Made by a program: the position numbers and the translations under genes. From IMG/VR virus record IMGVR_UViG_3300029813_000149, positions 1 through 25,339 of that record: DNA of 25,339 nucleotides; one strand, 5' to 3'. Below, one piece after another: positions 5,891 to 9,233 of this stretch. The DNA comes from a virus. Position 1 is the stretch's first letter; each line of letters opens with the position of its first letter. The notes beneath the pieces were generated by a model. It was not told the DNA's origin. It was given only the letters and a program-made list of their open reading frames with translations, and searched no databases.

Positions 5891-6454
5891 ATGAAAGTCG
5901 GAACAATCTGTAAGTTAAAAGTGGACTGCCTGGGTAACAAGGCAGGGACATTGGGCGTGGTCTTTTATGAGTACGACAATGGTTTCCAGGCGATATTCAA
6001 GAACGGAAACTATGATGGGTTTTCTGTTTCTGCGCATTCATTAACGAGCCAGATGCAAGCAGAGGTAGTAGGCCAAACTGAGGCGAAGTATTTTCTTGAG
6101 GAGGTCGGCTTCGAGGAATCGTTGGCTGACTATCAATTCAAAAACGTGCTGCAAGTCGCTACGGATTACCTGAGGCGTTTATTCGACATTGCTTGGAGCG
6201 AGAAGTGGCAAGAGCCAGCGGAGATTGTTGAAAAATGCGAGGTTTTTGCAGATGGTAATAGACCTGCGTATTTAAGGTTCAAAAGAAATATCAGAGCAGA
6301 TACTGTTCGGTGCTCTATGTTGTCGGAAGCCAGAGACTTTGCAGACTTCTCTCATTTTGAATACGCCGACCTGGGCAAGAGTATTCACCCACGTTGGATT
6401 CAAGCCAACATAACAATATATCCGCAGTTTGTAGTTTTTCACAAGAAACTGTAA
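5891..6454 (+). CDS. Hypothetical protein with SH3-like N-terminus (187 aa)
   Basis: A strong site (TGAAAGGAGAATAACAA) precedes ATG 5891. Residues 1-48 (MKVGTICKLKVDCLGNKAGT...NGFQAIFKNGNYDGFS) follow the pattern of small beta-barrel domains seen at the start of uncharacterised phage proteins. The region of about 62-187 is mixed alpha/beta (FLEEVGFEESLADYQFKNVLQ) and ends with aromatic strands. It is the largest unknown of the plus cluster. No catalytic motif is visible. Confidence 0.7.
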   Translation: MKVGTICKLKVDCLGNKAGTLGVVFYEYDNGFQAIFKNGNYDGFSVSAHSLTSQMQAEVVGQTEAKYFLEEVGFEESLADYQFKNVLQVATDYLRRLFDIAWSEKWQEPAEIVEKCEVFADGNRPAYLRFKRNIRADTVRCSMLSEARDFADFSHFEYADLGKSIHPRWIQANITIYPQFVVFHKKL

Positions 6455-6926: not shown

Positions 6927-6947
6927 AAAAAGAAAGTGAGGAATCAA

Positions 6948-7256
6948 ATGAACAATAAAGGTAAAGCACTAAACGAGTGGGGAGCTGCCACAGCACCCAC
7001 CACTCCAGAGCGAACGTGCCGAATATGCGGCTGCACAGACAGCAAGGCTTGTGAAGGCGGCTGTAGCTGGGCAACGCCAGGAATATGCACCAAGTGCATC
7101 TTCGAAAGAGTGCCGGAGTGTATCGACTTGCTGGTTGAGGTTATTTTGGAAATACACCAGGCCGAAATCGATGCAGGGCATCACGGAGACGAAACCTGCT
7201 CAACGTGCGATTTGATAAAAGTCGCCCGAACAATTAAAAAAGCATTACGGCAATGA
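6948..7256 (+). CDS. Cys-rich zinc-finger-like phage protein (102 aa)
   Basis: ATG 6948 has GTGAGGAATCAA in front. Residues 22-46 carry CRICGCTDSKACEGGCSWA and then GICTKC, a spacing (CxxC, CxxxC, CxxC) that recurs in many phage and plasmid proteins and probably binds zinc. A second Cys/His group (HHGDETCSTCDL) lies near the C-terminus. It ends in ATGA overlapping the next gene. It may bind nucleic acid or a host protein; the exact role is unknown. Confidence 0.75.
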   Translation: MNNKGKALNEWGAATAPTTPERTCRICGCTDSKACEGGCSWATPGICTKCIFERVPECIDLLVEVILEIHQAEIDAGHHGDETCSTCDLIKVARTIKKALRQ

Positions 7257-7426
7257 AACACAGTCTCAAACATCCATCGAGCTTTTCAGTTGTAACGCTG
7301 CGGTCCACGATGCACAAAGCTTGTGTGTGTTGTGGCAAACCGCTCCGTTCTTATGAGGAATCGGTTGAACACTGGAAGAAGGAATTGGCAAAAACCGATG
7401 AGCAAGAAGCGAAAGCGAAAACTTAA
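7253..7426 (+). CDS. Small Cys-containing protein (57 aa)
   Basis: The start ATG 7253 overlaps the previous stop as ATGA. The protein begins MKHSLKHPSSFSVVTLRS, has a CVCCGKPLRSYEES knuckle in the middle and ends in a charged helix (HWKKELAKTDEQEAKAKT). An alternative start is the inner ATG at 7310, just before the Cys motif. Its last 29 bp overlap the methyltransferase start in another frame. Probably a small zinc-binding accessory protein; inference only. Confidence 0.55.
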   Translation: MKHSLKHPSSFSVVTLRSTMHKACVCCGKPLRSYEESVEHWKKELAKTDEQEAKAKT

Positions 7427-8210
7427 AGCAATAGAGCTATTCGCTGGTGCTGGCGGAATGGCAATAGGTCTTCAACAGGCTGGGCTCGATGTAGTGGCAG
7501 CCGTTGAAATCGACAAGTGGTGTGTTTCGACATTGGAGCATAATAAAGCAAAGGCGTTTCCGAAGATGAAAATAATCCAGGCCGACATTTGTACGCTGAG
7601 CGGAGAAGACCTTTTGAAACAAGTCAGCCTGGCTAAAGGCCAGCTCGACCTGTTGAGCGGTGGACCGCCCTGCCAGGGATTCTCAACAGCTAATATGCAA
7701 CGCCGTTCCATAAACCATCCAAAATCGAAATTGATGTGGCACTTTATCCGAATGGTGAGAGAAATACAGCCACGATATTTTGTTATCGAAAACGTCAGGG
7801 GGATAATGAGCTTCAAAGACTTCTTCCGGCTATTATTGAAAAGCCTTGAGAAATGCGGATATGTGGTAAGGTTTAATCTGTTGGATTGTGTCAGTTATGG
7901 AGTGCCGCAGCGAAGGCTCAGGGTGTTGATAGAAGGTGCACGAAACGACTTGAACGGTATTCCTGTTTTTCCTACCCCGACGCACTTTTCACCAGCCCAG
8001 CTCAGACCCAAAAAAAACTCCATCGCCATTTCGCTTGTCGCTGTGAAGTGTTTTGCGACACACGGATTTACCAGGAAAGAAGTAAATGATGTATGGTTTA
8101 ATCCAAAGCTGGAGATTATGATGAATCGGAAGACAGCTGCCGAAACAATCAACCAAGCTTTCAATGAAATTATAGCAGAAGCGTTATTAACAATCGTAAG
8201 GAGCAAATGA
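7398..8210 (+). CDS. DNA (cytosine-5) methyltransferase, compact
   Basis: It transfers a methyl group from SAM to C5 of cytosine. Motif I IELFAGAGGMAIGL is at 12-25, motif IV GGPPCQGFS at 88-96 with catalytic Cys92, motif VI ENV at 131-133 and motif VIII QRRLR at 171-175. After motif VIII only about 95 residues remain. There is no room for a normal target-recognition domain, and motif X is degenerate (INQAFNEIIAEALL instead of the usual GNAVPP form). At 270 aa it is shorter than the usual 320-450. ATG 7398 (MSKKRKRKLK) is chosen over a longer GTG start as it leads straight into motif I. It may protect phage DNA or be specificity-impaired. Confidence 0.88.
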   Translation: MSKKRKRKLKAIELFAGAGGMAIGLQQAGLDVVAAVEIDKWCVSTLEHNKAKAFPKMKIIQADICTLSGEDLLKQVSLAKGQLDLLSGGPPCQGFSTANMQRRSINHPKSKLMWHFIRMVREIQPRYFVIENVRGIMSFKDFFRLLLKSLEKCGYVVRFNLLDCVSYGVPQRRLRVLIEGARNDLNGIPVFPTPTHFSPAQLRPKKNSIAISLVAVKCFATHGFTRKEVNDVWFNPKLEIMMNRKTAAETINQAFNEIIAEALLTIVRSK

Positions 8211-8211
8211 T

Positions 8212-8568
8212 ATGAGAGAAATAAGCAAAACCCGAATGGAGTTAGCAATCAGAAACCTCGAGCGCAGAGCAGCCAAAATTGAGGGCGTCCCTACCTTTAG
8301 AGGTGTTCCTGCGACAGCCTTTGATAAAGAGCATCTTGTGATGGTCTGTAGTGTTTTCGCAAATGAATGGCACAAAACCCAACAGCAATACTTTGCGTCA
8401 TTGAACAGGATTCTTCCCAGCTTTGTTGCAGGTGTATGTACAGCAGAGAAGATTTTTTCTAAACCTTCCGTCTGGAGCAAAATCAAACTATGGAACATAA
8501 AAAGAAAATTGGCATCATCTACGCCAGATTCAGCCCCCGCCGAAACGCAGACAAATGCGAGAGTATAG
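8212..8568 (+). CDS. Hypothetical protein (118 aa) before recombinase
   Basis: ATG 8212 follows AAGGAGCAAATGAT, right after the methyltransferase stop. The N-terminus is a basic helix (TRMELAIRNLERRAAKIEG), the middle has FDKEHLVMVCSVFANEWHKTQQQY, and the last ~26 residues overlap the recombinase start in another frame and look unstructured. No motif is recognised. It could be a recombination directionality factor or a methyltransferase partner by position, but the sequence does not show it. Confidence 0.6.
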   Translation: MREISKTRMELAIRNLERRAAKIEGVPTFRGVPATAFDKEHLVMVCSVFANEWHKTQQQYFASLNRILPSFVAGVCTAEKIFSKPSVWSKIKLWNIKRKLASSTPDSAPAETQTNARV

Positions 8569-9233
8569 AAGCTCAGTTGGATTTCTGCCGGAAATGGTGC
8601 AGGGACAACAATGTCAAAATTGTAGGTGAATTTGCGGACCGGGCCCTGTCCGGAGCTGATGAGGAGCGTCCGGAGCTGTGGGCGGCAATAGCTGCGCTCG
8701 AGCGCGGTTATGTGCTGGTAGTTTATCGCTTAGACCGGCTGGCTCGCAGCGTGTATCTCAGCGACATCATCGAAAGGTCAATCAATAAGAAGAAAGCATC
8801 CTTCCTAAGTATATCCGGTGAGGGAACGTGGTCCGACAGCGATGAGGATTGGTTGATTCGGAAAATACTGCAGACCTTGGCGGAGTACGAACGCAAGGTA
8901 ATTGGGGCCAGGACAAGAGCGGCGATGCTCAGACACCAGGCCAGCGGTAAATTGATGGGCAGCATACCACCGTATGGCTTTATGCTGGACCCGAAAGACA
9001 GCAAGAGGATTGTTAAAAATCCGTATGAGCGGATAATTATAAATCAGATAAAGAGATTGGATAAGAAGGGTTTAAGCCTGCGTCAAATCGCAGCTGAACT
9101 AACGAACCTAAACTACAAGCCGCGAAAAGTGCAAAGAAGATTCAAAGATAAGCCTGTGTTTGTAAAAGGCAAATGGAATCCTCAAACAATCCACATAATA
9201 CTGAAAAGACTCAAGGCCGGCGAGGTAGTTTGA
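8490..9233 (+). CDS. Serine recombinase, compact (247 aa)
   Basis: The resolvase/invertase catalytic domain starts at about residue 7: YARFS has nucleophile Ser15, ALSGADEERPEL is at 52-63 and YRLDRLARS at 79-87 carries the conserved Arg/Asp/Arg. A 'Recombinase' DNA-binding segment follows (GSIPPYGF, about 156) with a helix-turn-helix-like LDKKGLSLRQIAAEL. Large serine integrases are usually 450-600 aa with a zinc ribbon and coiled coil; both are missing here. It may integrate the element, invert DNA or resolve multimers. It ends 23 bp inside the convergent minus-strand gene. Start ATG 8490 gives the catalytic domain its usual N-terminal spacing. Confidence 0.9.
   Translation: MEHKKKIGIIYARFSPRRNADKCESIEAQLDFCRKWCRDNNVKIVGEFADRALSGADEERPELWAAIAALERGYVLVVYRLDRLARSVYLSDIIERSINKKKASFLSISGEGTWSDSDEDWLIRKILQTLAEYERKVIGARTRAAMLRHQASGKLMGSIPPYGFMLDPKDSKRIVKNPYERIIINQIKRLDKKGLSLRQIAAELTNLNYKPRKVQRRFKDKPVFVKGKWNPQTIHIILKRLKAGEVV

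Follow-up and report, generated by a model that had tools for sequence, protein, structure and literature searches.

Short phage C5-cytosine methyltransferases without a recognisable target-recognition domain

The usual description of a C5-methyltransferase is of a catalytic domain joined to a recognition domain. The window analysed here, a virus record of 25,339 bases, carries a C5-cytosine methyltransferase reading frame at 7398-8210 on the plus strand whose translated product has only 270 amino acids, and it raises the question of whether so short a protein is an enzyme in its own right, one chain of a divided enzyme, or a gene in decay. A first-pass annotation of this DNA had described the shortened protein and offered decay and a neighbouring partner among its explanations; the observation stands, whereas these two explanations are not supported. 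The open reading frame list also gives an alternative GTG start at 7323, which would yield 295 amino acids, and in a neighbourhood comparison several relatives begin at, or close to, the point that corresponds to the ATG at 7398.

Catalytic core and C-terminal segment

The catalytic part, residues 1-196 (7398..7985, plus strand), contains motifs I to VIII and is delimited by motif alignment, Pfam, model pLDDT and superposition on M.HaeIII. With the motif names I-X, which we take to apply to the residues of the 270-residue enzyme as follows, alignments A1 and A2 give motif I as F15-A-G-x-G-G20, motif II as E37, motif III as D63, motif IV as G89-P-P-C92-Q-G-F, motif VI as E131-N132 and motif VIII as Q171-x-R173-x-R175; in the motif alignment the catalytic codon, Cys92, falls at 7671-7673 on the plus strand. 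The motif I-VIII residues are invariant in all 11 short-enzyme rows of A2, which bears out the earlier claim that the catalytic motifs through VIII are intact. The PF00145 superfamily features in this part, motifs I, IV (PPCQ), VI (EN) and VIII (QxRxR), are all present and, judged by motifs I-VIII, the short enzyme is a member of the C5-methyltransferase superfamily. The Pfam match itself covers residues 10-195 only, at model positions 2-170 of 324 (E 3.6e-49), and the NCBIfam dcm model TIGR00675 matches residues 12-202.

The AlphaFold2 models reach a mean pLDDT of 77.4 when built from the clade alone (model 1) and of 84.4 with ordinary enzymes added (model 2), the latter from an alignment that is biased towards motif X because the tails had already been matched by the aligner. 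In model 2, the 10-residue pLDDT means for residues 11-190 are 81-98. The core superposes on M.HaeIII (1dct_A) with a VIA Z of 21.2 and an rmsd of 1.3 over 173 residues, and on M.HhaI with a Z of up to 20.7. Motifs I-VIII and the catalytic fold are those of the M.HhaI/M.HaeIII type (PF00145), whereas the short enzyme lacks the target-recognition domain (TRD) and a recognisable motif IX, has a degenerate motif X, and counts 270 residues against the 324-327 of their PDB chains. The use of a carboxymethyl or other cofactor was considered, and 8yf3 gives a good core match (Z 20.1), but plain methyltransferases do so as well and the idea was dropped.

From R175 to the C-terminus there are 95 residues, and from motif VIII to the end 101, so that the earlier figure of about 95 residues after motif VIII is correct when counted from Arg175. 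A profile-profile alignment with 14 ordinary phage enzymes ends at about residue 199 (column 202), and the tail-bearing alignment A3 ends at the same place against ordinary enzymes; this agrees with the earlier claim that the TRD is essentially absent between VIII and IX. The variable TRD between VIII and IX, a PF00145 feature, was not found in the short enzyme in the profile alignment with the 14 ordinary enzymes, and no motif IX is recognisable in it. None of the 11 rows of A2 retains the GN and PP of motif X, and the description of this motif as degenerate, with NQAFNE replacing the usual GNAVPP, therefore holds. The accompanying premise, that a region of some size between VIII and IX is indispensable to C5 enzymes, is too strict, since a passage of PMC7335073 describes a TRD loop of 20 residues in DNMT3B.

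At the expected TRD site lies a variable linker, residues 197-212 (7986..8033, plus strand), which differs in length among the A2 rows and has low pLDDT: values fall below 50 at 198-202 and 204-217 in model 1 and at 211-213 and 215-217 in model 2, where the block means for residues 201-220 are 55 and 53. It is followed by a clade-specific C-terminal segment, residues 213-270 (8034..8210, plus strand), recognised from its conservation in the tail alignment A5, its dN/dS and a weak motif-X-like signal. Residues 213-247 are strongly conserved in A5, where the stretch VAxKxF..GF...V.....NxKLxI.M..KTA precedes a predicted helix at 244-269. The tail is modelled less confidently, with block means of 53-89 for residues 211-270 in model 2.

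Our comparisons suggest that the predicted helix 244-269 is a degenerate motif X. A254, invariant in A2, corresponds to the A/S position of GN[AS]V, and the motif-X-like helix aligned with ordinary IX-X regions gives a local score of 17.4, above the mean of 9.8 and the maximum of 16.8 for 100 column shuffles. We word this as a suggestion because the HHalign probability of the same comparison is only 7.8%, its global score being equalled by 5 of the 100 shuffles, and because the short enzymes' own tails are absent from the 12 best open reading frames of a motif IX-X HMM. The C-terminal helix was placed on motif X by no structural alignment, the sole row that reached residue 270 having an rmsd of 12.2, and the Foldseek and VIA lists place the tail on no known fold, which is not evidence of a new one. 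A known domain was also rejected as an identity for the tail: the best PHROG (E 0.0035) and Pfam (E 0.013) matches each came from one of 11 members, among scattered weak matches. The window tail has no match among PDB sequences at E up to 10, the tail alignment has two at E 0.3, and a search of 50,697 phage records with the tail returned none at E up to 0.1. A six-frame scan of 13 contigs for a hidden TRD/IX/X reading frame or a split gene was negative.

A conserved clade and its relatives

Scans of viral contigs found the same short enzyme in at least 11 others, at 47-81% identity over the full length; two pairs among these 11 carry identical or nearly identical genes. In a maximum-likelihood tree of 68 catalytic regions, which left out L029, L039, L055, L049, L056 and exact duplicates, the 12 short-enzyme rows form one clade with support of 100/98. 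The distance from motif VIII to the end is 94-118 residues in 12 of 12 clade rows (window 101, L119 105). Among the 69 other viral rows, 63 have 154-575 (8 of the 63 being flagged duplicates), and 59 of those 63 long-tailed rows match a simple motif X pattern. The exceptions among the 69 are a second short clade of four, the singleton L049 and the remnant L029. This count took in all 80 kept loci except the duplicate L011; because only 80 of at least 552 relatives were kept, 38 of them taken in one intermediate step, further short families may exist among the others.

The second short clade (L027:876-1856, L030:3785-4831, L032:3707-4822 and L083:3845-4852; support 100/100) has 107-119 residues from the start of motif VIII and a conserved tail of its own, PGIRYFxDR ... 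FxxFYxxL ... EPDR, and L049:1354-2154 encodes a C5-methyltransferase of 266 residues with 61 from motif VIII. All five resemble the window enzyme in their short C-termini (61-119 residues from motif VIII) and in showing no motif X pattern; they differ from it in that the four form a separate clade with a different conserved tail, and L049 ends about 60 residues past motif VIII. Phages have probably lost the TRD on more than one occasion, unless both short clades are sisters, which the weakness of the deep branches would allow.

L049 is followed by a small reading frame and then one that, by eye, is like an N4/N6 DNA methyltransferase; a reading frame next to the L083 gene is D12-like by eye; and in contig G001 a D12-class N6-adenine methyltransferase (PF02086; L092:13889-14770) overlaps the end of the short C5-methyltransferase gene. 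In the window, a serine recombinase (Resolvase, PF00239) lies downstream of the methyltransferase at 8490-9233, and L005 likewise has a similar frame after its methyltransferase, but lacks the 118-residue frame that the window carries at 8212.

A prophage copy lies in a planctomycete MAG (L119:5314-6327; 45% identity by tblastn), where a CxxCxxCC protein and a ParB-like gene adjoin it and a nearby reading frame is terminase-like by eye. Ahead of motif IV its enzyme has about 50 inserted residues, which are absent from the other aligned clade members. This prophage, the one link to a host, suggests that the viruses probably infect planctomycete bacteria. Among cellular genome contigs, the whole-protein query found no copy and the A3 query one. 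In a sample of the planctomycete phylum, 28 of 392 genomes match A3, but only G016 does so beyond position 51 of 106, all the others matching in the motif VIII region; tail A5 matches 1 of 397 genomes of the class and 1 of 161 of the order, the same prophage both times. Among plasmids, 4725 records match the enzyme, all at less than 60% identity. A search limited to open-licence papers in PMC found no description of a C5-methyltransferase without a TRD. A 245-residue phage phiH record from a viral structure list was dropped as a short comparator because the complete phiH1 genome annotates this gene with 1887 bases.

Whole-gene dN/dS is 0.085-0.232 in nine pairs, and 0.162-0.366 for residues 213-270 in the eight pairs that could be measured. 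The pairs are nine of the 10 (of 55) with a synonymous proportion below 0.72, the near-identical L017-L018 being omitted, and several still have dS above 1. The short enzyme, tail included, is under purifying selection.

Partner genes and other explanations

If the TRD is not in the protein, it could be supplied by another one, and a partner was sought in 13 contigs, all of them fragments, of which 12 hold an intact enzyme and one a remnant. Only one gene family, the methyltransferase, is common to all 13; the next two occur in five. None of their 4784 reading frames resembles a TRD/IX/X subunit, the best E values being 1.0 with the IX-X HMM and 0.28 with a TRD-IX-X HMM, while six of six whole ordinary enzymes used as controls were detected at E 7e-26 or better; one control, L025, is close to the sequences that built the HMM, and of the 20449 bases of G009 the first 20000 were covered. 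The first-pass annotation had pointed to the genes at 7253 and 8212 as a source of recognition, and this proposal is not supported: neither travels with the enzyme, and no reading frame bearing IX and X was found in any contig. When the 12 other contigs and L119 were searched by tblastn, the small frame at 7253-7426 had a relative only in G012 (43%), whose methyltransferase is a remnant, and the frame at 8212 only a 25% match in G010 (E 0.003). The comparison with split enzymes that had been proposed likewise came out negative. An excerpt of PMC3404938 describes the M.AquI large subunit, which resembles the short enzyme in combining motifs I-VIII with no more than a portion of the variable region; unlike for M.AquI and M.EcoHK31I, however, no second chain with IX and X was found in the 13 contigs, and the short enzyme has its own conserved tail. 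For what these fragmentary contigs contain, it does not appear to be a split enzyme of the M.AquI type.

A candidate for a different kind of helper is encoded upstream. The window reading frame at 6936..7256 on the plus strand is a small candidate zinc-finger protein (Cys pattern at 7017-7097; CxxCGCT) with relatives in G005 and G007-G010, and the frame at 7253-7426 separates it from the methyltransferase. The CxxCGCT zinc-finger with further cysteines lies on the same strand, 34-300 bases upstream of the enzyme, in six of the 12 contigs and nowhere else in them. By a stricter pattern it is present at five of 10 short-enzyme loci against none of 69 other methyltransferase loci, seven of which hold about 300 or fewer bases upstream. 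Its carriers differ, being a frame of its own in the window, a protein with a domain like that of window 5891-6454 ahead of it in G005, a small frame with a sub-threshold AP2 match in G008, and the C-termini of ParB_N proteins in G007, G009 and G010. In L102:902-2671, L104:2565-4340 and L105:8780-10594, ParB_N proteins of 589-604 residues end in this zinc-finger just before the short methyltransferase gene.

These associations, together with the two-chain enzymes M.AquI and M.EcoHK31I described in parts of PMC3404938, favour a catalytic subunit that borrows DNA recognition from the upstream zinc-finger or zinc-finger/ParB-like protein, from another phage protein or from a host protein. Yet the zinc-finger was not found upstream in the other six contigs (G001 and G002 hold fewer than 500 bases there) nor at L119, where the CxxCxxCC protein occupies that slot. 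It is also a common phage domain: at least 119 stretches match, and among the 80 fetched only one, itself a clade member, stands beside a C5-methyltransferase. As four of the six carriers form one sub-clade, the link may be inherited or bound to the host. No other gene is present in all contigs, although they are fragments and a host partner would be invisible in them. With half of the contigs showing none, the zinc-finger is unlikely to be an obligate subunit and may be an optional helper; we regard borrowed recognition in general as unlikely.

Loss of the DNA-reading domain could instead mean that the enzyme has moved to an RNA substrate, tRNA or other, in the manner of Dnmt2, which according to an excerpt of PMC3380923 applies a DNA-type mechanism to tRNA. 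The short enzyme shares the core motifs with Dnmt2, and its sequence is compatible with an RNA substrate; however, M.HaeIII and DNMT1 are both closer matches than Dnmt2, and CFTxxYxxY, given in the same excerpt as the defining motif of Dnmt2, is absent from all 11 tails and all 11 A2 rows. By this motif the short enzyme would not be a Dnmt2, and an RNA cytosine methyltransferase seems to us improbable. Less probable still is that the gene is inactive or in decay, or that its product is retained for a role other than methylation. The degenerate motif X would fit such a fate, as would L029 in contig G012, which retains only an internal fragment; against it stand the 12 intact contig copies together with the one in the prophage, the retention of the catalytic residues in 11 of 11 rows, and dN/dS well below 1, and we reject the earlier suggestion of decay because of the intact copies and the dN/dS. 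The L029 frame (L029:3923-4615; G012:30831-31523) is a mosaic around a short-methyltransferase piece, residues 16-112; its start resembles a reading frame upstream of the methyltransferase in L006 and its downstream stretch the window frame at 7253, and it is either a remnant or an assembly chimera.

Proposed mode of action and meaning

The explanation that we tentatively favour, with somewhat less than even confidence, is a self-contained phage DNA (cytosine-C5) methyltransferase with little sequence choice, in line with the loss of specificity that the first-pass annotation had listed among its options. Sequence comparison supports its premises: the catalytic and AdoMet motifs are complete, a TRD is missing, the members form a single conserved clade under purifying selection, and the contigs have no partner gene in common. 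The TRD would have been lost after motif VIII, leaving a C-terminus made of a short, clade-specific conserved segment. Since the TRD is absent and the gene is nevertheless kept intact by selection, the enzyme may methylate with little or no sequence choice. Transfer of a methyl group to cytosine after base flipping is established for the C5-methyltransferase family and would be the natural reading here, because the catalytic machinery is complete. We propose that DNA is held by the catalytic loop and the C-terminal segment 213-247, perhaps with self-association as in DNMT3, and that, there being no TRD, 0-2 bases beside the cytosine would be read instead of a longer site. Phage methyltransferases usually serve anti-restriction; from this usual role, the enzyme may spread 5-methylcytosine over phage DNA and so blunt many host restriction enzymes at once.

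The DNMT3 enzymes offer a precedent, as a tiny TRD can evidently work. In the passages of PMC7335073 on DNMT3B, DNA is contacted by the catalytic loop, the 20-residue TRD loop (772-791) and the dimer interface. The DNMT3A/DNMT3B catalytic domain is similar in size (8te1_A, 287 residues) and has a very small TRD according to the same passages, and the core fold is alike (9prw_D, Z 15.8, rmsd 3.5 over 174 residues, only the core being compared), but sequence similarity is weak (E 0.0037, residues 5-125 only). Against a self-contained enzyme count the loss of GN and PP from motif X, the IX-X HMM that misses the tails and the less confident tail model, as well as engineered N-terminal M.SssI fragments, reported in an excerpt of PMC3404938 to be inactive alone without the C-terminal parts; those fragments, however, did not evolve to stand alone. 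Base composition was also tried as a clue to the target and gave none: of the 12 contigs, 11 have a CpG ratio of 0.95-1.35 and G011 one of 0.68, with no common depletion, and there is thus no compositional sign of dense CpG methylation.

It is possible, if doubtful, that TRD loss, perhaps more than once in phages (the short clade, the L027 clade and L049), has produced a natural single-chain C5 DNA methyltransferase with almost no specificity. Nonspecific phage adenine methyltransferases exist, and an almost unspecific short enzyme would be their C5 counterpart. If active and unspecific, it would serve as a tool in footprinting and in the methylation of all cytosines; should it depend on a helper, it would offer a modular methyltransferase that can be retargeted. 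For the family as a whole, a conserved clade without the TRD makes the roles of this domain besides sequence choice testable.
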